Positions 4,604 to 56,795 of a stretch of DNA of 64,000 bases are shown piece by piece (position 1 is the stretch's first letter; the number at the start of each line of letters is the position of its first letter). The notes under the pieces are model-generated. The model saw only the letters and a list, made by a program, of their open reading frames with translations. It made no database searches and was not told the DNA's origin. The translations under genes and the position numbers were made by a program. The DNA is from Anadara kagoshimensis (lineage: Eukaryota > Mollusca > Bivalvia > Arcoida > Arcidae). The DNA lies in NCBI GenBank assembly GCA_021292105.1, contig CM037861.1:53780920-53844919 (forward strand), given 5' to 3'.

Positions 4604-4772
4604 GACCCCGGTTTCTCAATCGTTTCTTAACTATAAGATTTTCCTCAACATCATTTTGAAGACCACTTATAGCTTGTATTTAGTTTTGTAAAAATATTTA
4701 TTAGAAGCTCCGAAAAAGATTTGCCAAAATTGGAATATGGCTTGGTTAAGAAATGATTGAGAAACCGGGGTC
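4604..4772. mobile_element. MITE, GACCCCGGTTTC family, intact copy
   Basis: The 169-bp unit has near-perfect inverted ends: GACCCCGGTTTCTCAATC at the left, and GTTAAGAAATGATTGAGAAA then CCGGGGTC at the right. It lies 25 bp from a second copy of the same family. Confidence 0.75.
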
Positions 4773-4796
4773 TGTGGTTCCAGCGACATTTAACAC

Positions 4797-5300
4797 AGGC
4801 CCCAGTTTCACAATCATTTCTTAACTAAGAGTTTCCTTAATTAAATCTGGCAAATTTAAAATCTTAAATACTTTTGTTAATTTTTAAGATATTCGTGAAT
4901 TTAAGGTGTCATATTGAAGATCATTCAATACATCTATATTTTAATTCAGTGTTGGAACTTTTTATTTGTAGTGACATAAAATATTGTCAAAATTTGCCAG
5001 ATTTAAGTTACAACTAGAAAAACTGTAAGCCACAAGCTCACAAAAATATCCCCGCTCCCCCACATAAAAAATCCATCGGATCAAATTTTTAAATAGGAGG
5101 TGCACATCTATATCATATCACAAAGATTGTGTGAAAGTTTCATGAAAATCCATTAAAGGGTTTAGGAGGAGTTGCGGATAAGAGATGTAACGGAGGGACA
5201 GACAGACACACGGACGGACACCCCATCACTATATACCCCCCACTTTTAAGCGGGGGGTATAAAAATCTTAGTTAATTAGGAATGATTGTGAAACCAATCC
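4797..5300. mobile_element. Second MITE copy, interrupted by another repeat
   Basis: The left end GGCCCCAGTTTCACAATC and the right end GATTGTGAAACC (5284-5295) belong to the same family as 4604-4772, but lie about 500 bp apart instead of 170. The middle (about 5010-5265) is a different element. Confidence 0.65.
5010..5265 (+). mobile_element. Nested repeat with CGGGGGGTATAAAA end
   Basis: Starts near CTGTAAGCCACAAGCTC and ends AAGCGGGGGGTATAAAA; includes GTGTGAAAGTTTCATGAAAA and a run of ACAGACAGAC/ACGGACGGAC. The style matches repeats at 23240-23620 and 33180-33500. Confidence 0.5.
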
Positions 5301-6572: not shown

Positions 6573-8599
6573 AGTACTGTGTCGAACCCTTATATGTAGT
6601 AACTACGCTATATGTAGTAACGCCGTTATATGTAGTAACAAATGTACGTCAAATGTAGTAAGGACACGTTATGTGTAGTAAAACTCTCCGTCAAATGTAG
6701 TAAGGACACGTTATATGTAGTAACATTTTTGTACGTTATATGTAGTAACTGCTAGGTCACGTTATATGTAGCAACATTTTTATACGCTATATGTAGTAAC
6801 TTGATAAATGTCTCTTAAATGTTCAAAATGTTAATAGCTGGACTTTACTAGAAAATTGAAAAAGAAAATTTGGTTGGGTGAATTAATAAACCGACAGACA
6901 GACGGCAGACGGACATTCAGGCCCAATAATATATAATTGTCTAATTGTTGATGCTTTCCACTGAATTTACACAAATGTCGTAGAAGCTACAAACGTTGGC
7001 GCCGTCAGCAGAGTATGGTGTCATAATAATAATAATAATAATTCTTATTTATTATTTTTCGCAACACATTTTAAAAAAAATATAATATGAAACACTTAAA
7101 GAATCTAAACTCTTGGGTTACCTAAAGTCGACGAGAGTGGGGACGTCAAAGTAGTTTCCGGATGATAACTTTAACAGTTACAGGCATTTCAAAAAAAACT
7201 TTGCATTTAGATACATTGTTTCAAGATATTGGTTGGGTTACTCATAGGGTCCGTTGGTCAACAGTCGGGTCACCACGACAGAACAATATCAATTATGATG
7301 CAGGTCCCCGGAATACATGCATCGAACCTGTATGTTTTTCAATCTATGAAAGAAGGTGTTTTACTTTAGAGGATGCTCTGTACATTTTCTCCAGATAAAA
7401 AAAACAAACAAAATGGCTGTCTGGAATATATATGGCCGTTGTTTTTCTACAAAAATATAAATACATCCAATACATATATTCTAGGGACCTGTATTTTCTT
7501 AATTGAAACTGTTTTGTCACCGGCAGTATGACATTAAATTAAGGGTTCACTACTTGAGTTTATTTAAACAAAATCACCACATGTATGTGGAGACACTTGG
7601 ATAAATGGTTCGGTGGGTTCGCGTCTAACTGTGTGTTATGCCTTTATAATGTCACATTGTTCGACTCTATCTAGCTCCACATGAATGTATACTGACAATG
7701 TGATGGACTAGTTAACACCCAATCCAAATAGAACATTGGACGCCTTTACGTCATTGGAAGCAGGATAAACACTAGCCTTGAGAGCCTAAAGACTCAGGGT
7801 GGACTATAATCCATGCAACCATATGCATATTATATAACGCTTCGACACAACAATTTTAGAGTCATACACATATTTCATTACTTTATGAAGGTTAAATGCT
7901 GCTTTCTATTCATTAAAATTTAAACATTTAGAAAACTGCAACATTCCACATCAGAATATCTTCAAAATATAGACTTAAGACCTATAACATCAGAATTTGT
8001 CACTGACCTAAAAGGAATCCCAACATGCAAAATCAATTTGAAAAATCTCTGTTACAGTTAAAGTTATCATCCAGAAACCACTTTGACGTCGCCCGTTCCA
8101 GATTCTTCGGGTGTATAATGTTGTTTTTTGTTTAAAATATGTTGCAAAAAATAATAAATAAAAATTATTATTATGACACAATACTCCCCAGACGACGCAA
8201 AAATTGCGGTGCCTATGATGTTTGAAGTCAATTAAGTGGTCAGGCATGAAAAAAAATCAACAATTAGATAACTACATGTATTTATTATTGGGCCTGAATG
8301 TCCATCTGTCGTCTGTCTGTCGGTTTATTAATTCACCCAACCAAATTTTCTTTTTCAATTTTCTGGTAAAGTCCAATCTATTAACATTTTGAACATTTAA
8401 GAGAGATTTATTAAGTTACTACATATAGCGTATAAAAATGTTGCTACATATAACGTGACCTAGCAGCTACTACATATAACGTACAAAAATGTTACTACAT
8501 ATAACGTGTCCTTACTACATATGACGGAGATTTTTACTACATATAGCGGAGTTACTACATATAGCGTAGTTACTACATATAAGGGTTCGACAGTACTGT
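6573..8599. mobile_element. Foldback DNA transposon with 8-bp target duplication
   Basis: The element spans 6581-8591 (2011 bp) and is flanked by AGTACTGT at 6573-6580 and 8592-8599. The ends GTCGAACCC and GGGTTCGAC begin long inverted arms: 6581 to about 7207, and about 8024 to 8591. The outer part of each arm carries repeats of a TATATGTAGTAAC motif (about 10 left, 8 right). Further in, the arms share GGTTGGGTGAATTAATAAACC and GATGATAACTTTAAC. The ~800-bp centre has no transposase. Eight-bp duplications are typical of hAT, P and some Merlin elements; I cannot choose among them. Confidence 0.85.
6588..6800 (+). repeat. Left-arm array of 13-bp TATATGTAGTAAC motif
   Basis: About ten copies, spaced irregularly by 17-27 bp, alternate with GTTA/CGTTA spacers; some have TGTGTAGTAAA or AAATGTAGTAAG variants. 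The mirror array is at 8415-8582. Subterminal motif arrays of this kind are often transposase-binding sites. Confidence 0.85.
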
Positions 8600-13899: not shown

Positions 13900-15310
13900 T
13901 ATAAAAAAGTAATAAAACTCCTTTATAAATTTTGGAAGAACTCTACGAATTCTCCAAAAATTTACAAAACAACCTTGATGGCATCTGAACGAAATCCACG
14001 GCTCCCCCCGAATATTAAAATGAACAAACACTCCTTAATAGAGTCTAAACGAAACCCAACCTTAATGGCATATTGGGGTCCGAAGAAAATTCATGGTACC
14101 AACAACACATCAACGCCTATATGTAAATTGCACAAATTTGCTGGAATGTAATTTTTATTTTAAAAAAACGATAAAATTCTTTTCGAACAATAGGCGTGAT
14201 AGTTCTTCAGTCTTTTGGTATCTGATGAATCTAATAGAGGTAGACCTTGGCTCTCCTTACTTGTATTGGATTCCTAAATTTCATAAACATCTATACACGG
14301 AAAGCTCAAGTTCCTCTAAATGCACTTCTTACCCATTATTAGTAATTCTAACACATATGTTGACAATTGCTGGTCTTCATTCTTATTTAGGTAAAGTCTA
14401 ATCTACATCTGGTATCAAACAAATGTGGATTAAAAAAATCTAAAGGATTACTTGAACATCTTGTTTCTAATACCTTTTCTCGTGTAAAAAGTATGTTAAA
14501 AACATTGATTTTTCTACAGTTTACAACACTATTTCTCATTTTAAACTGATAGAACGTCTAAATAACATTTATGTGTCATTATTCTTTTATAAAGAAATAA
14601 AAACAACAAGCGAAGGTATAAATGTCTACTGCTAAAGATTCTAGTTATTTTGTGAAGCACCATGCATACGGACTACAAACAATAACATACCATCAACAAA
14701 ATGTTAATATTTTTATAGACAACATATTTGTTATGTTTGGTAATATAGTTTCCAACCAACAATCGGACTACCAATGGGTACAAACTGTGCATCATTATTA
14801 ATATAAAACAGGTTTTATGTAGAACTTTGTTACATCTGTGAGAAAACTGTCGCCAAATCATTCAACTCCACATAAGGCTTATGGATGAAGTTTTAATACT
14901 CCTTCAGTTATAGAATTTTATGGCCGTCATTACAATACTGTAGATAAAAATAATGTCTCTGCATCCAAGGTTGCCATGGATATAGTTCCAGGTTTCTTTC
15001 ATCCTCAATTATATTTCACATATGAGAGTGTTACTAACAAAATAAGAGACGCTTAAACTTTCGGAGCAACAGACTTAAGTTACTTGGTGGAGGTTGTCAA
15101 TTTTTGTCACTTTTCAAAGTTTTTACTTTGCTTTTGGGATTGTGATTTGAACGTAGACCGGTAGTATTTAAATATATTTTGGTCCTTTGGATATTTTATC
15201 AACCCTTGAAGAGAAAATTGGTTTCACAACTTTTGTCCAAGTACTACTGATGAGGAATTCTATTACAAAACGACCTCTAGTACATAATTAACATTGGTAT
15301 AATATGTAAT
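13900..15310 (+). pseudogene. Degenerate Penelope-like reverse transcriptase copy with 3' tail
   Basis: Reading across frames in order: LYWIPKFHKHLYT and SSSSKCTSYPL (14250-14340), SGIKQMWIKK (14409 on), KTLIFLQFTTL (14500 on), YFVKHHA and NIFIDNIFVMFGN (14650-14750), QQTIGLPMGTNCASLL (14755-14800), then after a deletion FYGRHYNTVDKNNVSASKVA (14920-14980). These are the ordered blocks of a Penelope-like RT family common in marine invertebrates. Stops, frameshifts and an internal deletion make it dead. The 3' tail (15040-15165) is followed by a hammerhead-like motif at 15241-15283. Confidence 0.75.
15241..15283 (+). ncRNA. Degenerate hammerhead-ribozyme-like motif
   Basis: GTACTA - CTGATGAG - 12 nt - AAAAC - GACCTC - TAGTAC. 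The outer 6-bp arms pair perfectly and surround a CUGAUGA core. The second core box has AAAA instead of GAAA, so it is not expected to cleave. It sits just 3' of the Penelope-like tail. Confidence 0.45.
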
Positions 15311-17618
15311 TGAAGGTTGGTTAGGTTCCTTCAACCACCAATAGGGTCTCTCTTACATTTTTATCACATGCCCTATATAAAATCCTTATCTATAGGAAGC
15401 AATTAATTTGAGGTTCCTATAAATTATAGCCCTCCTTATATGATTATTTTTAAAAAATAGTCTTTCCAGTAAGAGAACAGTTAGCATTGTATATTATGGT
15501 ACAGTGTATAGTTTGTTTCCATTGGGATTTCAATAATTGAAAAATTCTTCATTATTTGAATTCAAATAATTAATTAGTACAATATTTAAATACAAAAAAG
15601 TGCACTTATTTTTTACCTGTTTTGTATTCTGCTTATATCTATAGTTTAATCATTATTTTTTTTTTAATTGATGGATTTATTACGTGGCAATATTTTATTG
15701 ATATCTCATGACGCCAAATTTATATGTATCATATTTTATCACAGACACTTCAGGTCATTTATTTATTTATTTATTTATTTACTTTATTTAATTTTAAAAT
15801 CACGTGTTTCTGGACAAAATAGGTCAGAAATAAAGCGATTATTTGCATTTTAACTTTAAAAAAATTCTTTATATTAAAAGTTGAAAAATTAAATAGATAG
15901 ATACTAAACCCCAAATACCTACCTGTGGTGTACCTCTCCTTTAAAAAAATTATTTGAGATAAAGACAAACATCGATTTCAAAGAGAAAAATGACATACTC
16001 GTACGCTTTGTCATCAAAATAGAATAAAGATATTTGCAACTAAAAATGTGTACATGTACTTTGAAACTGTCAACTTATTCAAGAACACGAAGCGATATAA
16101 ATAAACGACAGAGCAACCATACAAGCCAAGAACAACAAATGTTGGAAACAATGATTATAAAATTCCTTAAAAATCTTCATTGATGTTGTTTTGAACCTGT
16201 ATATAATTGGGCGCCTTCCCATAAAGGCCACTTTTAGTGGTTCTATTAGTTGCTAATAAGACAGGTTTGACTGTATACGTATTCAGAAACACACTTTGGG
16301 TTGGTTAAAGTCGTCAAACAGACTGAGAACTTGAACGACACTAATTGGTTTGGTTTTATTGTTATATTCTTGTGTCTTTGTATCTTTTTTGTTCTTTTTG
16401 TTGTTTTGAAATCTTTGATCTCTTGGCTTGTGTCAAATACATGTTTTTGATATTCGATTGCGCTAAAGGAACGGTTGTTGGTTGTTACACACAATAGACA
16501 TAATAATATAATTTCATAGCCTGTCTAGTCATGTGATTTTGTTTTCTCTTTCAGATAATTAAGCATTAAGGAACTTATAGGTAAGCAAATGGAATAAATA
16601 TCAAGTGTAGTACCATGGGGTGCCAAACTAGCTAAATGTTATGTTTTCAAAATTTTAATTGTATCCCGTGAATTTCATATTAAAAAGACGCACTTTCTTG
16701 TAGACAACTACCTGTGTAGTGAACATTTCATTGTAACCAACTAGATGGACATCTCCAATCAAACCGTGAATGGTAAGCTAGTTGGTTTGGCCTTTAAGCT
16801 ATGGATCTGATCTGGTTCGACGGCCAAACTTTTAAAACCCCTTTCTTAATTATTGATTTTTGTATCAATCGTATGGTTTGATGCAGCCTGATGCAAGTCT
16901 AACTGTTCTGGTTCTGGTTGTCAAAACTTTTTTTCTGAATTATTAATATCATATCTGCTGTATTGCAGATGTTTTATGCATGGTGGGACAAGTAAAACTG
17001 CTCGCCTTGTAAAATATTGCCACATCAACCAGAAGTATTCAGAGCTCTAGAAGATTTCTGAATTATTTCTTTGTTTTATTTTGAAAAGTATGGATTCCAT
17101 ATCCACAATTCATTCGCCTCATTGCTTTGTGCATTCCATTTGGTCCTATACAACCGGTGGCATACTACTTCTTGAAACGTTTGTTGAAGTGTCAAAAGCT
17201 TCAAGACATTAATAATATTTAAATTGTTTTCGCTTATTGTGGTGCTGACAAGGCTAGTTTCTGTGTAATTGTTGTGAAATATACTTAGGTGTGTTAAAGA
17301 AAGACTAGTTGAACATCTCCAATCAAACGTATTATGTTTTGTAACTGTGATTTACCAAATATGGATCGTAAAACAATATTTTAAACGATATATTGAATTA
17401 ATTTTGTGACAATAAGTAAAGTGATAATTATATTGTCAGATTTTTTTTAAAAAAAAAGCAAGAATAATGTTAATGTTTGAAAATGTGTAAACTGACAATA
17501 CTGACAACGACAATGTTTGGTTAATTAAACAGATACTGGCCCATGTCAAATCACAATCTCAAAACCAGACAAATAAGTTTAAACACGTTTGTCATGCCCC
17601 TGTATTAACTAACATTAT
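15311..17618. other. AT-rich intergenic stretch
   Basis: It contains a minus-strand ACAGTCAAACCTG-family fragment (about 16213-16275) and TTTA repeats at about 15757-15782. No coding exon seen. Confidence 0.5.
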
Positions 17619-17883
17619 GATTGTTTCAGCTTTCTGTTTCTATATTTCATTGTTTCAGCTTTCTGTTTCTATATTTCATTGTTTCAGCTTTCTGTTTCTA
17701 TATTTCATTGTTTCAGCTTTCTGTTTCTATATTTCATTGTTTCAGCTTTCTGTTTCTATATTTCATTGTTTCAGCTTTCTGTTTCTTTATTTCATTGTTT
17801 CAGCTTTCTGTTTCTATATTTCATTGTTTCAGCTTTCTGTTTCTATATTTCATTGTTTCAGCTTTCTGTTTCTATATTTCATT
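17619..17883 (+). repeat. 29-bp tandem array, about nine copies
   Basis: The unit is TTGTTTCAGCTTTCTGTTTC followed by TATATTTCA; copies are nearly identical (one has TTTATTTCA). Because 29 is not a multiple of 3 and the unit has no stop, all three plus frames stay open, giving spurious 73-118-codon frames. Every unit holds a TTTCAG acceptor-like word. Confidence 0.95.
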
Positions 17884-17911
17884 CTAATATACCTCCTTAA
17901 TACTATTCTGC

Positions 17912-17926
17912 CCCCCCCCCCCCCCA
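17912..17926 (+). repeat. Poly-C run
   Basis: About 15 C residues separate the 29-bp array from the Penelope-like fragment. Other C runs: 46200-46221 and about 50329-50342, both also beside or inside Penelope-like copies. Confidence 0.9.
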
Positions 17927-17930
17927 GCAC

Positions 17931-18490
17931 GATGTGGGGACATATTATGACGCACAGGAAAGGCTACATTTGAAACTTTATGACAAACGTGATGACCTCA
18001 ATTTTTCTATTGTCAACTTTCCTTTTTTATGCAGCAATATACCTGCTTCTCCTGCTTATGGTGTATTTGTTTCCCAATTAATACGCTATGGTAGAGCTTG
18101 TTCCCAATACGGGGACTTTGTACAACGAAGTAGGCTGCTTGCAAATAAATTGTTGACTCAGGGATATTGCAAGCCTAGGCTTATCAAGGCCCTCAAAAAG
18201 TTTTATGGCCGTCATCACAGTATTGTTGATAAGTTTGATGTCTCTGTATCCAGGATTGCCTTGGATATATTTGACGTCTCATAGTTCCATGTTCCTTTCA
18301 CACAATTTTGATTACACACGTGGCGGGTGTAGCTAGCTAAACAGGAGGTGCTTACCCTTCCGGAGCACCCGGCCTCACTTCCCTGGTGGAAGTTCACGTG
18401 TCTAACCTAACTTGTCAGTTCCAAAGTATTTACTTTGCTTCTGGATTGTGATTCGGAAATGGATTAGTATATTTGTTTTTGATTACTTCA
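17931..18490 (+). mobile_element. 5'-truncated Penelope-like element: RT C-terminus plus 3' tail
   Basis: The frame from about 17934 to 18284 encodes KLYDKRDDLNFSIVNFPFLC, NIPASPAYGVFVSQLIRYGR and KALKKFYGRHHSIVDKF, the typical C-terminal end of this RT family, and is uninterrupted (about 110 codons). Non-coding tail to 18490: GGCGGGTGTAGCTAGC, TTCCGGAGCACCCGG, CCTGGTGGAAGTTCACGTG, TGGATTGTGATTCGG. The 5' end is lost at the poly-C run. It is the best-preserved copy in the window. Confidence 0.8.
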
Positions 18491-24200: not shown

Positions 24201-27200
24201 ATGTCAGCCATTAACGATAAGCATGTTTTTACACAAACATCTATGGACGAGAAGTCCCAAAAAGAAATAGAAAGACTGAAAGCTGAAAATGAGTTACTGC
24301 AAGGGAAAATTAAGGGTTACGTGAATTTAAGTGAGTTCATATAGATTTAAATTTAACATTGACTTTGATTGATTTTATTTAGTAACTGTACTTCCATATG
24401 TATATTTTTGCAGTTATTATTATACTTGTTCAAATTTACATTCATAAAATATTAACAAAGGAGTCAGTTTGGTAAACTGTCTCTGATACCCTGAAACATG
24501 AAACTAATTATGTACAGTCAAACCTGTCTATAAAGATCACCCAAGGGGACCAGTAAAAGTGGCTTTTATGGACAGGTTGCCTTTATATACAGGCTCAAAT
24601 AACATGAGTAATGAACAATTGGGATACAGTTCTACTGGCCTATATAAGCAGGTGTCCCTGAAGGTAATTTCAACAGTCAAATTGTTTCAATGGAGCTTTT
24701 TGCAAATGGATAGTAAAATGTACATGTATTTTCGAAGAAAGATTTCATAATGTTTATTTCAATCCTTTCTATCTACCGGTAAGTCATGTTAGATTTGAAA
24801 TGATCAACATTTACCTGTGATATATCATCGTTAACATGCGGCGAATATATCACTCGGTAGCATATTCTTCCGCATGTGAACTCCAGCCTGTGTATTATTC
24901 GATGATATACCATGGGTAAATGTTTATTATTTCTTAATTCTCCATATTGATAGCAAGTTATATTTTGGAAACATGTAGCTAAGTTGATAGAGGTTCAGCC
25001 TCTAGATACATGGGTCATGTGGTCAAACTGTTGTAAAGAACATTTTGTGACCTTGGTCAAGTCATTTGACTGTAATGCAGTAACTGTTTGATAGTTAATG
25101 TTTTTATGTGTTATTACAGGTGATTTGTTTAGAGAAAAGAAACAAGAATGTCAGAAGCTGCAGGAAATGAATGTAAAACTTACAGAACAACTACATCTTG
25201 ACAAAGATTACAGCTATGCAGACAAAGGAACTAGTATTTCTTTTAAAGTGAGTTATCAGATTGGATATTGGAAACAAAAGCATTGTTGCTAGTAAACCGT
25301 CCTTCTGTTTATCTAAGACTGATGACATGGGCTTAGTTAAGAACCAATTATAGCCGAGGCAAAGAAATAGAAGCGCTAAATGCGCTACAAATGGGGGTAT
25401 GCTCCCCTTGAAAAATTTGAATAATGAAATTAAATGGTGCATTCTGACAACACCTGAACCTAATATTTACTGTTAAATAATACTAGTAAATGAATAAGAA
25501 AACTTATGAATTTAAAACATACCATTCCAAGTCCCATGATAAACATTACCAAAAAGACAAAGCAAAACTTTACAGAAACTGAACTTTGCATAATACAGTT
25601 AAACAAATGAAACAATTTAGTATCTCAAGTTTTACCAGAGTTTCATTTAGTCAGCCATCAAAAAGACAGCAATTAAGATATTTTTCTGCTTTATTAGTTG
25701 AGTCAAATACTTAAAAAAATGATCCAAATTTTACCGAGGCATCTTCTTCATTGCCTCAAAGTAAGCTACATCTCTTGACGAATTAACTGATTAAATCTTA
25801 ATTACTAGTTTGATAAATGAAATTGTTCACTTACACTTAATGACAAACAATGTTTACATCACTGTTTGTTATTTTCAAAACATGGACACCAAGGCATGTA
25901 AATTAGTGGCAAACTTGGACATAAACTAAGGTAAATTTGGAAAAGTTCTTTTTGCAAAAAAATGTCATTTCAAGATATTCACATGCTTTTATATTTCTGT
26001 GTGATGATGCCCAGTGAAAATGCAAGTCAATTATACCAAAATAAAAGGACATTGTTTATGTATTTAAATTTATTTTATTTTAATTTTCTGTTGTAGAATT
26101 TGCAAAACTTGCAGAATGGACATGGAGCAGATATAGTACCTGGTAATGAAAAAATAAGTACAAGAGATAATTTGGTTTTAGGATTAGATAAGGGAACCAT
26201 CAACAACTCGACTGTTCATACAACTGATTTGTTTCGCAGTGCTCCAAAATATCAGATGTCCGACGTACCTATTGTAGAAAACGGAGTTACCTATCCACCA
26301 CAGACCAATTACCTGTATAATCCAATGCAGGAATCTTTGTCTTCAGAAAACAATGTGTCTGTCATGGAGTCATCAGATCAAAAAGAAAAAGTATCACCAA
26401 AATCACCTAACCCAGAAAAATTGTTGGAAGAAAACTTGGAATGTGATTCTCTAAGAATTGAAGACAATGGATATGTCCATGTTTCTAAACCTGGTGGATT
26501 GATGAAACAGACATCAACTAATGCTACGTATGGTTCAGATTCTGTGTCTGGAAGTTTAAACTTAATGGAGTTCCCAAGTGTTGGTCGGCAGAATAGTGTT
26601 CCAAAGTCAGTATCACCAGAAGTTTGTAATCCACCAACAAAATTTGAGGTAATTAAAACATTATTTTGATTTTGGTGTTTCTGTTGGTTTTGTTTTTCTA
26701 GTTTGTCTTTAATATAATCTATAACATAAACATTACTGTTTATTTACCTTATTCTTTAGAAGGCAGAAATGCAAATATATTACAAGTTTTTAATATGAGC
26801 GGTATAAGCCAATAATTCATTTACTTAAATTAGCAGGGTTATTGTCAATACAATGTAATCTTTAGCTCTATTCTTGACTTAAACCGCCATTTAAGCAAAT
26901 TGTTATTGGTGTAAATGTTTACAATGGTAAAAAAAAGTGACAATGCAATGTTTATATGTGAGGTAGTGATTGCAGAAGAGTTGGGTATCTATGTAGCTTA
27001 GTGCAGTTCAAGGACATATTGATTTTGGTACAGTTTAGGTGGCCTTAATTTTGCCATAAGTAATAAACTCTTCGTCATAATAATGTTACATGCTACATAC
27101 CATTGTGAACACTTAGCCAATAAATTGATGTTTTATTTTATTACAAACATTGTATGGGTGCTTTTAAACGAGAACCTACATATCATAGTGCCTCTCACTG

Positions 27201-30200
27201 CCTAGGACGAGAACCTACATATCATAGTGCCTCTCACTGCCTAGGACGAGAACCTACATATCATAGTGCCTCTCACTGCCTAGGACGAGAACCTACATAT
27301 CATAGTGCCTCTCACTGCCTAGGACGAGAACCTACATATCATAGTGCCTCTCACTGCCTAGGTTTAAATCTCACTTGGACAGATCCTAGTTTGAGAAAGC
27401 TTGTCAGTAGCTTGCGGAAGATGAATGGTTTTCTCTGGGTACTTCCCTCTCAAAACATATCATATATAAGAGATATTGTATTTATTACACAAATCCTTAT
27501 ATCTATTCACAGCGAGTTATTTTAATTTTGTGACATCAAATACATTTGTAGTCACCAGAGTATGCTATTTGAACAGTAGCAATGTTTGTCATTCCACATC
27601 CATCAAATTTTTTTTGTAGTCACCAGAGTATGCTATTTGAACAGTAGTAATGTTTGTCATACCACATCCATCAAATACATTTGTAGTCACCAGAGTGTGC
27701 TATTTGAACAGTAGCAATGTTTGTCATACCACATCCATCAAATTTATTTGTAGGCTTCAGAGGTACTTCAGAGTTTGTCTGTTGAGTTGGTTAAGAGTCT
27801 CCAGAACAATCAAGCTGGTAGTGATAATGGACATTTGACAACAGACGGCCCAACATCCCCCATAGAATACTTGATCAATGTGATAATACCTGAGATCCGG
27901 AAACTGGAGGAAGCTTCAGCTAACGATAAGGTACAGACTGTAAATACAAATTATCCTTGATAATGGGGTTCGCCGCTGTACCATGTGATACCTTCTAACG
28001 TGTCTGTGAAATGCTTGTTCCCAATGGACATGGAATCGGACAATATGACGCTTTCCCGTAAAAATGACGTTATTCCTGGAATTTGTAACGTTGACGTTTT
28101 CCAAAATGTTCCGCACAAACGTTAAGCGGTATTGATCACATGGTACGGCGGCAAACCCCATGAAATATCTGTATAAGAAATAAAGCAGAATAACATGTGT
28201 AGTCACAATAACAAGAAGGGCCATGAAAATCTAAAACAAAATAAAAATCGTAAATAACAGAAGATAAACATATGATGACAACAGTGATTACAAAGCTAAT
28301 GTCCAGGTTTGAATTCCACTCTTTCAGAATGTTTGTGAATTTCCTTGTCAAAGATTTGTGGTTTTCTCTTGATACTCTGGTTCCTCCATCACCACAGAAC
28401 TATCATAATTGCCACATTTTAAGTAAAACGATTTTGAAAGGGTGTAAAAGTGCAATCACTCTTTTCCAATTTGTAAGGGGAGCAGCAAAATGATAAATTT
28501 GTACTTCTGTGTGTGTATCATTAGCTTATTGGCTTTTTAATTTTAATATATGTCTATGAATATTAGCAATTTTCTAATACACAACCCACATGAGAACCTA
28601 AAAGTTTTGGGTTTTACTTTACATATTGGTATGTCTTATCTTTACAGAGAACAATATCCATGTTACAACAAGAAGTCAACAGATACAAGTAAGTTGCCTT
28701 TATTTACCATGATTAAGGACAAGGGATATTTAGTCTCTCAGAAGACTTCTAGAGTTTTGCTTAGATTCACCTTCTTCTGTCCAATACAGCCTGAAGAATT
28801 ACAACCAAACCTTGTTCTGATTTTTCCTATGACTGCATAATGAGGTTCGCCAGAGTGTAACATGATCAATACACCACGACATTCATGCCAATTGTTATGG
28901 AAAACATTTATATCACAAATTTCTCAACTTATGCAATGTCATATTCATTTGGAAAAGATGTTTCACACAAACTTTATAGGAATCAAGCTGAATTGTGGCA
29001 AACTCCTTTGAAATCCTGCTTTCATTTTAGCATATCCATCATATAACATGTATTTTAAATGTTTGACAAAATGTAGTAGATATTTATTATATATAATATT
29101 GATGGTATAATTTGATACAGTAAAACCTATATATCAAGACCACCCATGAAACCTTAAAATATGATAGACTATCAGAAAATGGTCTTTTTATAGAGGGTCT
29201 ATTTGATTGAAATATGAAGCAAAGAGGCCTTAAAACTCTGGTCTTAATGGGCAGGTGGTCTTTATGTTAAGATGGTCACTCTATAAAGTTTGTTTGTATT
29301 TGTAGGGAAACCAATAGAAGACAGCTGGAAAAGATACAGAGACTTGAACATCAAGTTAACAACTTACCTGAACCTAATTCTTTATCATCACAAACACAGG
29401 TGGTTGGATGGGAATATGTCAAGAAACCAGATCATAAGGTAGAGTTTAGTATGACATGAAAACAATAGCTTTAACACCCAAATGAATAGGTGATATTGCA
29501 GACACATATAGAAGATTTTAACAACTTCTTTATGAACATGTATATATTTATTGCCTTTGAGTGAGGGAGATATGAACATTTGTTCACTCGCAACAAGTTA
29601 TATTTCCCAAGGGCGAAATATTGTTTGAAACGACCATTAAATGTCTTCCCAGTCATTTTTTCCTATGAACTTTGGAACTCACCGGAGGCAAACATTAGAA
29701 TGTTGAAACAGATTGTCTATCAATGTCATCATATCATTGTGACTTTATGGTATGTTCGGAACGATTGGAATATGATGTTTTCATAGGGATACACAGTGTT
29801 TTTTTCCAATCGATCACATGATTCAACGATCCATTGAAATTACAGATAGCATAGTATTTTGTCAATGAGGTATAATAATAGATCTTCTACTTCATGGATA
29901 GGGTTACATTTAAACATCTTTTTTCAACCAATATTCAAGATTAAGTAGGGTCCACAGTGGCCAAGTGCTTAAGGGGTAAGCTTTTAAAACCCAAGGTCTC
30001 TCACCACTGTGATTTTGACCACACTCAAGTGGAGAAGAGCTACTTATTGGGTTAGGTCCTTCACTGGTTGGCTCAGTACCAGTATAATGGACTTAGTGGT
30101 ATGTAATGTTGATCAATGACTCTGTAATCGAGTATGCTCTACTGTAGTACAAGGCAAATCAGAAAGATTTCTTCAAACGTATCCTTGTGTTTAGATTAAT

Positions 30201-50516: not shown

Positions 50517-50765
50517 AGGTGTTCTAAGATATGTAGAAGTCAATATTTCATTAATGGTTAAAATTAACATCATTTTATTTTTCAGACATGTAATAATAAC
50601 ATAGCAACATCAATCGTAAAACAAATACAAACATTTCATTTATATTTCACATTTAATTAATTAATTCACATTTGGTTATTTATAATGATTCAAATTAAGT
50701 ATAAAGATATAAATAAGAACATCTATGTACATATAAGTAGTAAAAAATACTACATCTGACATGAA

Positions 50766-50961
50766 TGGGATTCGTCAGGGTACCTCGTGACCAATACCCC
50801 TTAACGTTTGTGCGGAACGATTTAAAACACGTTTATGTCGCAAACTTCCTGAAAAACACCGTTTTAGGGGAAAACATACAGAATTCAATCATATGCAATT
50901 GAAATATTTGATTCGCTCTCGCTCTCAAATTATAGGGTATCACGTTGGACTCTGATGAACT
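50766..50961. mobile_element. Palindromic MITE copy
   Basis: GGGATTCGTCAGGGTACCTC then GTGACCAATACCCC at the left; TAGGGTATCACGTTGGACTC then TGATGAACTC at the right. Same family as 27961-28160, in inverted ends. Confidence 0.65.
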
Positions 50962-51764: not shown

Positions 51765-51990
51765 TTAATTAACATTGCACAAATAATACATATTTGGAAA
51801 TATATAATGATTCATATAAAGTATAAAGGTATAATTAGGTATAATTAATTAACATATTATATCAGTTTAAAATTTACAGCACTAGAAGGCCGTTTCAGAT
51901 TATAATTCCTCATCAGTAGTGCCTAGTATAAATAAGAATATCTATTTACAAATGAGTAAAAATTTCTTCATCAGGCAAGAATTGGGATTC
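51765..51990. repeat. Paralogous copy of the 50640-50780 segment, carrying a 97-bp insertion
   Basis: Both copies share ATTTAATTAA, TATAATGATTCA, AAGTATAAAG.TATAA, ATAAGAA.ATCTAT and GGGATTCG. Only this copy has 51835-51931 between the two halves. Confidence 0.7.
51879..51922 (-). ncRNA. Hammerhead-ribozyme-like motif inside a 97-bp insertion
   Basis: On the minus strand GCACTA - CTGATGAG - GAATTATAATCT - GAAAC - GGCCTTC - TAGTGC. The outer arms form six perfect pairs. Both invariant core boxes (CUGAUGA and GAAA) are present. Stem II is short (G.U, G-C, A-U). The base triplet before the 3' arm is TTC where an active type-I hammerhead has GUH, so cleavage may be lost. Established: hammerheads occur in Penelope-like elements and in small metazoan retrozymes. 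Confidence 0.55.
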
Positions 51991-52731: not shown

Positions 52732-55700
52732 TCACACTGTATTGTATATATCACTGTCTTCTTGTTTAATCTTCAATGATAAAACCGGAATCGTCGTCTC
52801 CAGGTTTTCAAAAATCGTGCTTTCATCATCTATGTCGATCGTGCCATCAGCAGAATACTCCACCGACCCTTCCGCTGGCAAAGGAATTGTGTCACATCTC
52901 GGTAATTTTACATCATAATCTAAATTAGAATAATATGATAATTTGTTATTTCTAACATGTCTCTTTGACAGCCTTAACAGTTAATTATGTTATAGTGAAA
53001 CCTACCTCATGAAATTAATGAGATTTAAGCTTGATTGGGATTAAACAGACTTAAGCTTGGTCGGAATTGAGCATACTTAGCTCAGTCGGAGGTTTTATAA
53101 TCAGTTGAATAAATATTTACTTATCCCGTCTTAATTCACATACTTGCTTTGTTATGGTCACAGTCGCTTTAGTTAAAATCAAAGCAACCAAATAATTTCT
53201 ATATTGTTGGTTCATTCAGGCTCACAGCTTGGAAAGATTGTATATAGAGAAAACGTTCACCTACTAGTAAGTAAGGAATACCTAAAGAAGAGTGTATAGG
53301 AATCGACAAAATTTGGACATATTTCACATTTTACTAGATAGACGTCGCAAATAAAGATGGAGATAATAGGGTATTATTGCGCTTTATTTATTTACCATAA
53401 AAAGTGGTGTTCTTCTCCACAGTTAAGATATCAAGACGGTCAGTTCTCCGATGATACTATTGAACTTCGGCAAGCGTCTGACGAATATGCGTGTTTTTAT
53501 GTGTTTTTAATCACATTTATCTGTTGATTATACTCAGCAGTGTGATGTTGATGGAAATAAAACTAATACAAACTAGGGCACCGCATAGTCAATTAAAAAG
53601 AACTAGTACAACACAACTTATTTGACATTAATAAGACAAAAGAAACAAAGTAATTGACAATAAAAATAAAATGAAGAAATTAAGGAGAAAAAGAAAAAAA
53701 AATTGAAGACAGATAGGAAGGTTGAAGAAAGAAATAAGTATAAAAACCGTAATAATAGTATGATTGTAATTTTACGTACCTTCTTCCTCTTTGTTACATT
53801 TGTAGTATCTACCATTAAACGTCATCCTGCAGTTTGTAAACTGGTTACCATGGCATTCTATTAACTCTTCATCATCATCTTCTTCAAGTGCACATATGTA
53901 TACAACCTAATGTAAACAAACAAAAAACGATTACATAAATCAACAATACCAAGACACACTTTCAAGTTGTTCATTCATCAAAATTAGGCAAGGTTATCTA
54001 GAACTGTTACATTAGTTCAAGTACATCGTAACTGTGTCTGTACATCTTCTAAACAAAATGAAAAAAGGAATAAAAAGATTCGACAGAGCAATTTTTAAAT
54101 ACAACATACTGTGAAATAATTTATTTTAATTTTGTGCAGTAGTAAATTCGTGTTTTGAGGTGTCGTTGTCATGAACTTTCGTGGTTAAGGCTATCCACAA
54201 AAATGGCAAAAAATGGCAAAAAATAATATTAATAATAATGAAAGGAAAAACGAAAGAAACAACGAAAAAATGATTTGAAATAAACAAATCGTTCATGGTA
54301 CCAAGTCTAAATTGTAAAATGTACCAAATGTATGATACAAAAGTCAAAAGTTTACAAAGTCTATAAAACAGAACAAACAATTCAAACTTTAAGTATATGA
54401 TTTGTTATGGTGGTTGAAATATTAAATATAGTGTAAAATGATCTATCATATGTTAATATGAAGTGACAACCTTCATATACACTATCAGAAACGTAACTTA
54501 CAATGTCAGAATGAAATATGCCATTTAATTATCTATAACGAATGATAAATGATGTTTATGATAAAAGGATTCTACCTCTTCAATAGTATCTTCACAAAAT
54601 TTTCCAGTATATCCCGAGGGGCATCTACATTTAAGTTCTGAGGCATAAGACATGGGTCCGCATATTGCTGTCCCGTTGTTTTGACACGGGTTTGCAAATC
54701 TTCGACAATATTCACCTACAATGAGAGTATTAATGTTTTTATAAAATTTTATAAAATTTAAAGCGAAGTTAAAAGAGATAATGTCAATCGAAATAACTTG
54801 ACAAAACACAGATATATCTGCTAGTTCAATCGCATCCGTTATGGTCATTATTCGAAGTAACATGTTTTCCACATTACAGAACAAACCAACCACATAAGAA
54901 TGAGACACGAATTTAAATATGTGCTCATTATTAATATGTCCTCATCATTATATAGAACAAACCAGGCACCCAAATCATAATATTTGCGCTTTACTCTGAT
55001 TAAACACATGTTCAAATCGCAACCACTAAAGCAAAGAAAGCAACTAGCAAACATTAAGATTAAAACACTCGAACTTCCGCCAAGGCAGTGGCGTCCTGTA
55101 CCTTGACAGGATAAACACTTCCTGTATACCAAACTACATGCGCAACATGTGGCATCAAAATTTAAAATGGAAGGAATAAGGAACTATGTGACTTCAAGTA
55201 CTTTCAGGGTAATTTTTGATACTGAGAAATTATAACAATAATGTATCCTCCAAACATTATTGGTGTTCATTACTACTAATAACGTGTTCTGATAGTTATA
55301 GAACAAAACAGAGACACGAGAACGGATGTCATATAAATAGCTTAATCCGATTGATAATGCAAGAGGGGCTTCGGTGGCCGAGTGGTCAACCGCCATTTCA
55401 CAACTGACCGCATCTATATATGTAAAATAATCTTTACTGGGACTTGAAACTCTAGTGATATCACAAACTCAGTAGGCAATAATTGTGTATTCCTGAGTAG
55501 GCAATAATTGTGTATTCCTGTGAGAAACATACTATGTCTAAATTTGCTGCTACTTAAAATTTGAAATTTCTCAAAAACTAAGGTATTCTCCCTCAAAGTA
55601 TTTCCTTAGCTAAATTTGGTAACATATATTTTGGTCCTTTTGGTAATCTTTTGAAATCTTGAAAGCAATTTTGGTTTCATAATTTCGGTCAAGCACTACT

Positions 55701-56795
55701 GATGAGGAATTGAACTTAAAACTGGTATAATATGTAATTAATGTGTCTTCTACATTGTAGAACAATCAAACACAAAAACAATCATTTTAAAATTACATAT
55801 ATATTAGATATAATGTTTGATCAATCGATAACTTACATGTCAAAACTGTGCTTGGATCATCGTTTCGATTTCGGCACAATGATTTCCATATTGATTTATG
55901 TTGACCACACATCAGGCACTCTTGTTTTACCGACTTCTGGAAGAATTTGTCACATGGGTATATGTCTAGTTCAGCTGAAAATATAATTAAAACAATTTAT
56001 AAATTCATACATTGACTAAAATTATTATCTATAAAAGCTTGAATAATTTATGACTTTGTTGAAGCCTGAAGCTATTTTATGGAACAATTATTCTGTAACT
56101 TAGATTCGTAACCTAAATCTGACAACTTTTGGCAAAGTTTCATTTGTCTTGAATATAAAAAAATATAGATACATATTAGCATAGGACGATCACTTTTATA
56201 TGACAACTTTTATTCGTTAATATCTTGAAAACAGACAAAATGATAAAGATTTAACGCATATTTGTCAGATTTAAGATAAGGAATATATTAGTTATGAAAT
56301 GATTGTGAAGCTAGCAACTGGAATACTGGCAGCCAGATACATTCGCTAACGAACAGGGAGGAAATGTTGAACCCACTGGCTACGCTTATTAGTATTCTTT
56401 GGGACCCCGGTAGCCGGATTTCAGCTAAGCGCTTTCTAGTCTCAGTGCTTCTTATCGCTTAGTTTCTAACTCCAATCGGACAGTTACTAGAGTGAGAAGA
56501 ACGTCGGAGGTTATCAATCCATTCAACTCTTATATATTTCTTTTCGGCAGTAAATAAATATCTTCTATGCTGTGATAGTATATTTTCAGATTCAAAAGTT
56601 TTTATATTTTTATTCAAGGCAGCTGTGTACATATAAATATAGCATATTAAAATAAAAACTCATCGCCCGGAAACATAGATCGCTTGTATTAATCCTAAGT
56701 TGTTATAACTATAACCACTTACTGTAATATTCGTCAACTAAACAGTATTGTCTTCGTTCACTTTCATTTTCAAACTCTTTTGAATCTAAAACATA

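Follow-up and report, generated by a model that had tools for sequence, protein, structure and literature searches.

The 97-bp insertion at positions 51835-51931 of the window (by which we mean the whole stretch of 64,000 nucleotides that was analysed) is very probably a decayed copy, with a truncated 5' end, of a non-LTR retrozyme that is neither autonomous nor coding; the 339-bp unit of this retrozyme carries a type I hammerhead ribozyme and is found both as single truncated copies and in tandem arrays. This degree of confidence extends to the reading taken together with the working model that we give below. As a locus, the insert is an ordinary one: it is the decayed stump of an abundant retrozyme family. 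It belongs to that family and has an empty paralogous site in the same window, and the family itself displays tandem monomers, a constant 3' end, a variable 5' end and many intact ribozyme sequences. The constant 3' junction of most placed copies, with none at the cut site, bears on the identity of the enzyme that copies animal retrozymes and on the kind of RNA that this enzyme uses as its template.

The Insert and Its Empty Paralogous Site

The insert, its parts and the host segments around it lie in the window as follows:

51835-51931, minus strand: 97-bp insertion relative to the empty paralogue; its flanks join gap-free to 50659-50773
50659-50773, plus strand: paralogous segment without the insert (empty site), from its alignment to the joined flanks
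51781-51834, plus strand: host segment left of the insert, from its alignment to 50659-50773
51932-51990, plus strand: host segment right of the insert, from its alignment to 50659-50773
51847-51922, minus strand: homology to the retrozyme family, corresponding to positions 265-339 of the monomer, with 89.5% identity to the consensus
51835-51846, no strand: junction bases at the 3' end, matching neither the family nor the empty site and holding a 10-bp near-repeat of the target (by eye)
51923-51926, no strand: CTAG, at the 5' junction of the insert and outside the family homology (by eye)
51830-51834, plus strand: TATAA, one copy of a proposed target duplication, the other being at 51927-51931; within chance, at least 5 bp being matched in 32% of mismatched flanks

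The segment at 50659-50773 aligns to the joined flanks (51781-51834 plus 51932-51990) without any gap at the join, with a score of 117 in a local comparison within the window, while the best score reached in 500 shuffles that permuted single bases of the joined flanks was 35. Thus, the proposal of the earlier note that the two host segments are diverged copies, with 97 extra bases at 51835-51931, is borne out, and the insertion is real relative to its paralogue. The homology to the retrozyme family spans 76 bp of the insert (51847-51922), and outside it the insert has 12 bases on one side (51835-51846) and 4 on the other (51923-51926). The broader claim of a hammerhead lying within a mobile-element insertion that has an empty paralogous site is right as well. 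The same note had taken TATAA for a target duplication, and this is not supported: the best match between the flanks is 6 bp, a length that mismatched flank pairs reach in 10.8% of cases, with at least 5 bp in 32%.

The Hammerhead Ribozyme of the Insert and of the Family

Two further features of the minus strand concern the ribozyme:

51879-51922, minus strand: type I hammerhead ribozyme, decayed; core intact, with 6/6 pairs in stem I, 4/5 in stem II and 3/4 in stem III; RF00163, 21.8 bits
51847-51884, minus strand: 3' extension past the predicted cut site; its length is 38 nt here and 37 nt in the consensus of the family

The unit that had been described from the letters alone can be read directly: it is a 44-mer, at 51922-51879, in which the six-base complementary arms GCACTA/TAGTGC stand around CTGATGAG and GAAAC. 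The pattern CTGATGAG-N4-25-GAAAC occurs once in the window, against 0.01 expected. The predicted ribozyme has a six-pair stem I, an intact core (CTGATGA and GAA) and a UUC cut site; it has kept its core but is weakened.

The Rfam model Hammerhead_1 (RF00163) gives the window copy 21.8 bits (E 0.0012, with 66 bases searched), under the curated cut-off of 34, and an intact copy of the family (L013) also scores below 34, at 28.1 bits (E 2e-5 in a 131-base scan). Scans of the whole window and of 351 bases, including those at curated thresholds, reported no hammerhead, and a 44-kb scan that took in eight loci, of which five contain copies of the family, returned nothing at E 0.1. Because these five loci were missed too, the miss in long scans is weak evidence; the scan of the whole window was dropped as a test, and scans of short stretches were used instead.

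Intact copies of the family read GCACTA-CTGATGA-GGAAT-TGT-ATTCC-GAA-ACGGCCGTC, followed by the 37-nt extension, which ends in GTAATT. The core is intact in 50 of the 66 complete local hammerheads, and 41 of the 66 pass all the rules, in a sample for which half of the loci (20) were picked by an exact intact core. The folding z-scores of the 44-mers are unremarkable (-1.43 for the intact one and -0.83 for that of the window). Folded as single strands, the consensus and the window copy both have a minimum-energy structure other than the hammerhead; for the consensus, this structure pairs part of the core, at -10.7 kcal/mol vs. -6.2 kcal/mol for the hammerhead with a 2-bp stem III. Stem III of the family is a palindrome, ACGGCCGU, and two consensus 44-mers are predicted to pair with each other as a double hammerhead whose stem III is 8 bp long (-31.3 kcal/mol). 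For the window copy, the predicted co-fold is another structure, without a double hammerhead, at -22.0 kcal/mol. From this co-fold, and by analogy with published type I hammerheads that have a weak helix III (described in passages of PMC7229834 and PMC7761336), we infer that the family ribozyme would cut as a dimer.

The Retrozyme Family in the Genome

The genome analysed amounts to 1.115 Gb in 36 contigs. It holds 2,403 copies of the exact 39-nt ribozyme core and 5,509 copies of the exact 21-nt 3' end, while the reversed controls gave 0 in both cases; the matches to the insert itself number 40, these being the 40 that were scored out of 2,115 candidates. A consensus monomer of 339 bp was derived from four tandem units (L016, L024 and L027), and five units in tandem are found at one further locus (L059). 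Indeed, the spacing of close neighbors on the same strand is 325-368 bp in 16 of 18 pairs, and 677 and 680 in the remaining two. The monomer has a GC content of 35%, and its longest stop-free stretch, read on the circular monomer, is of 75 aa. No terminal inverted repeats were found in the monomer (score 8, against a shuffle mean of 9.3), which speaks against an inverted-repeat DNA transposon (MITE).

The window carries two other copies of the family:

15170-15311, plus strand: second copy, 5'-truncated, about 81% identical, with the same 3' end
55457-55739, plus strand: third copy, longer, most of the ribozyme missing at 55712/55713, with the same 3' end

Inverted arrangements are also seen. 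Among the 100 matches listed on contig C1, three pairs of neighbors less than 1.5 kb apart are head-to-head and none is tail-to-tail; the head-to-head pairs (6334706/6335323, 42916465/42917333 and 43123973/43124841) are 0.6-0.9 kb apart, and two of the three have identical spacing, so they may perhaps reflect one event. One tail-to-tail pair (12038046/12038946) was noticed by eye in the list of exact 3'-end matches.

A Constant 3' End and the Template That It Suggests

The monomer was mapped by local alignment on 40 loci (L009-L028 and L059-L078) and on the window, which placed 72 insertions, of which 5 near an edge were dropped and 67 kept. This sample is biased, as 20 of the loci are the best matches to the insert and 20 were chosen for the exact core, and two loci (L009 and L015) share duplicated copies. 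The 3' end falls at monomer positions 337-339, and thus within 2 nt of one site, in 57 of the 67 insertions (42 of them at 339), and the other 10 end between positions 122 and 332. None of the 67 ends at the ribozyme cut site (position 302), and the standard 3' end is 37 nt past this predicted site. Genome-wide, 1,243 of the 5,509 exact 3'-end 21-mers continue with an exact TAAAC into the next monomer, and these tail counts are free of the bias of the placed sample. In the local copies, such a 5-base extension is kept at three internal sites in 26/35, 31/46 and 36/39 cases, vs. 8/26 at the tail.

Since a linear template cut by the ribozyme would end the copies at position 302, and none of the 67 ends there, the template would have been continuous across the cut site; judging from these junctions, it may have been circular, a multimer left uncut or a read-through transcript. 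Our working model is the following. The retrozyme arrays would be transcribed, and the hammerheads, probably paired, would cut the array RNA into monomers, the ends of which would be joined to give circles. Reverse transcription, by an enzyme provided in trans, would then begin at an internal position that is always the same, 37 nt beyond the cut, and would usually halt before the unit is complete, leaving 5'-truncated copies with a constant 3' end.

The most specific form of this idea is that reverse transcription starts, in the manner of Penelope-like elements, at a single base inside the unit, 37 nt downstream of the cut, that the RNA being copied runs uninterrupted across the cut site, and that animal retrozymes are parasites of the Penelope machinery. 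We advance it tentatively, at somewhat less than even odds. If it is true, the ribozyme serves the supply of RNA and does not define the inserted ends, and this can be read from genomic junctions alone. As to an earlier use of the 3' junction, the word 'tail' is absent from PMC7229834 and from the review PMC7761336 (supplements excluded), and no paper was found that combines hammerhead ribozyme with clam.

The constant 3' end at an internal site recalls the Penelope-like elements and, by this analogy, suggests a possible mobilization by Penelope. Whether Penelope-like elements supply the enzyme is, in our estimation, an evenly balanced matter; we have weighted this step down because, in the element from Anolis, which alone among Penelope elements has been studied in vitro, reverse transcription starts at a much greater distance past the cut.

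For the supply of the enzyme, and for this step only, the competing source would be a LINE-type machinery, which we consider unlikely though worth weighing. The 5' truncation of the family, and its long target duplications of 15 and 32 bp in two copies, would also be compatible with target-primed reverse transcription by a LINE. These two (L023 and L061, respectively) are the only ones of the 57 insertions with the standard 3' end whose flanks match over at least 9 bp, against 0.3% of mismatched flanks. Matches of at least 7 bp are found in 7/57 (3.4% when mismatched) and of at least 5 bp in 28/57 (32%), so that long target duplications are rare in the family and most flank matches are near the chance level. 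The flanks are slightly richer in AT than the background (71% and 74% vs. 68%), a point of likeness to Penelope-like elements. What speaks against the LINE machinery is the 3' end: in place of a poly(A) tract, the copies end at a site within a repeating template, a behaviour that PMC11167929 reports as particular to Penelope elements.

Inverted duplications of at least 9 bp between the flanks were found in 5/56 insertions, against 1.5% by mismatch. One locus (L012, on C13 near 55695077) has a 12-bp repeat in its two flanks that is inverted and not direct; it looks real, and the other cases look A/T-rich or simple.

Probable Penelope-Like Elements of the Same Genome

The genome contains 50 matches to GIY-YIG genes of the Penelope type, and 30 of these loci were examined, some of which look like duplicates (e.g., L038-L041). 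Going by their domain, copy number and motifs, these loci are probably Penelope elements. Under a relaxed rule, a hammerhead-like motif is found where the GIY-YIG frame ends, or a short way beyond it, in 17 of the 30 (L031, L032, L038-L041, L043-L045, L047-L050, L054-L056 and L058), and in none of the base-shuffled loci; in one case (L049), the frame runs into the motif. These motifs read CTGAAGA ... GAAAGCGCTA or close variants, with GAAA, and fall into three families, among which the sequence of stem I differs and its complementarity is kept. By eye, most of them are followed by a stretch of about 40 to more than 100 nt and then by a (TA)n run, and in the family of L032 and L044 the common sequence past the cut site is of about 40 nt. 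Downstream of the GIY-YIG frame of L033-L036, there is seemingly, by eye, a second frame with an ATG overlapping or adjoining the stop codon and with a CxxCGK motif.

Such loci raise the question of a solo end, that is, a pseudo-LTR and tail left by an autonomous Penelope-like element, as an explanation of the insert. Penelope elements can indeed end in a pseudo-LTR with a 30-40-bp tail and carry hammerheads (as given in parts of PMC11167929 and PMC3846280), and the motifs of the 17 loci also speak for it. However, these motifs and the bases that follow them are unlike those of the retrozyme, the 339-bp unit has practically no coding capacity, and among the 30 loci the monomer matches only two (L033 and L047), plus a 27-nt piece in a third (L044), all of which we read as separate retrozyme copies. 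Neither an autonomous partner with a matching tail nor a Penelope ORF bounded by the 339-bp unit was found among these 30 loci. We thus regard a solo end as improbable. The suggestion of a truncated Penelope end survives in one half: the insert is a 5'-truncated copy of a larger ribozyme-bearing element, but the end of a Penelope element is not supported, the monomer matching so few of the 30 GIY-YIG loci.

Variable 5' Ends and the Direction of the Event

A non-autonomous retrozyme, truncated at its 5' end, remains our reading of the insert, and it is on the 5' side that its copies vary. In the 67 placed insertions, the 5' starts are scattered over monomer positions 1 to 311. Among the 57 insertions that have the standard 3' end, seven, the insert of the window (start 265) included, are single copies that begin no earlier than position 240 and measure 62 to 90 bp by alignment, which could evoke a distinct mobile unit of about 80-100 bp, made of the hammerhead and the tail and moving as such. 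The starts of these seven nevertheless differ (250, 252, 253, 255, 265, 269 and 280) and form the tail of the broad distribution, whose clearest excess lies elsewhere, at positions 28-46 (13/67, vs. 3.8 expected if uniform). We therefore hold such a unit to be very improbable. The earlier note had favored it, but other copies extend upstream into the 339-bp tandem monomer; in the placed insertions, the 3' boundary is common to most copies and the 5' one is variable.

That the 97 bp would be ancestral and lost by deletion from the first copy has a negligible probability: a single empty paralogue is known and a search with the host segment gave no other, but one boundary of the insert is near the common 3' end of the family and the same sequence is present in thousands of other places, because of which we take the 97 bp as inserted. 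The genome search for further empty sites, made with the empty host segment, returned only this segment itself and missed even the paralogue at 51781; it is therefore insensitive to diverged copies.

Other Features of the Window

Several other repeats were noted in the window. A long nested inverted repeat lies at 6580-8592, with arms at 6667-6837/8378-8548 (171 nt, 96% complementary), at 6839-6940/8274-8375 and others, each of the two arms also containing arrays of a TATATGTAGTAAC-type repeat; it looks like a foldback-type element. Overlapping inverted repeats with arms of 41 nt and 36 nt (4604-4829) are potential hairpins, with weak matches to microRNA families below the cut-off. A 29-bp tandem repeat (17620-17883; 9.1 copies, 99% matches) is contained in a 160-aa open frame (17491-17973), and a 39-bp one (27168-27362; 5.0 copies, 100% matches), which is followed by a 67-bp repeat (27534-27753), in a 133-aa open frame; neither frame has a Pfam match. 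Finally, a minus-strand open frame of 138 aa (54528-54941) contains an EGF-like domain (PF00008, E 3.9e-05).

Comparison with Known Systems

The metazoan non-LTR retrozymes are described, in passages of PMC7229834, as tandem repeats with type I hammerheads that are expressed as linear and circular RNA; the mussel Mytilus galloprovincialis, according to the same passages, carries about 5,000 type I hammerheads, which usually lie in repeats of 350-390 bp. The present family, read here from genomic DNA, is like them by its anatomy: it combines a type I hammerhead with monomers of about 340 bp in tandem, a low GC content, no coding region and thousands of copies, and Penelope elements share the same genome. 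Its monomer of 339 bp is within the metazoan range of 150-450 bp. We would accordingly file it under the metazoan non-LTR retrozymes, with which its size, its GC content and its lack of a coding region or inverted ends are in keeping. The copy in the window differs in being a truncated stump with one decayed ribozyme. Target duplications in metazoan retrozymes exceed 4 bp when present; here, they are of 15 and 32 bp in 2/57 insertions, and most of the others are near chance.

In the newt and axolotl, whose type I hammerheads also have a very short helix III, the activity of dimers has been shown, as reported in a portion of PMC7229834, whereas for the present family it is deduced from the predicted co-fold, in which the palindromic stem III, ACGGCCGU, would provide an 8-bp pairing between two copies.

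Passages of PMC7229834 present the Penelope elements as a strong candidate for the enzyme of the retrozymes, on account of shared type I hammerheads, tandem copies and coexistence. In this genome, the Penelope loci carry CTGAAGA motifs, while the retrozyme family carries the classical CTGATGAG ribozyme, and the retrozyme unit differs from a Penelope-like element in having no reverse transcriptase or GIY-YIG ORF (no stop-free stretch above 75 aa). With a Penelope protein from Anolis, reverse transcription begins inside the RNA, and this internal start accounts for the 30-40-bp tail that genomic copies optionally carry (PMC11167929); this tail is counted, in the relevant parts of PMC11167929 and PMC3846280, from the end of the pseudo-LTR instead of the cut site. 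Measured along the ORF of the Anolis element, the cut site is at 26 bp and the start at 111-118 bp (PMC11167929), which by arithmetic places the start about 85-92 nt past the cut, vs. 37 nt in the retrozyme family. The two are nonetheless alike, as far as the same parts of PMC11167929 and PMC3846280 go, in having ends at an internal site downstream of the ribozyme, 5' truncation, partial tandems and a target duplication that is sometimes absent.
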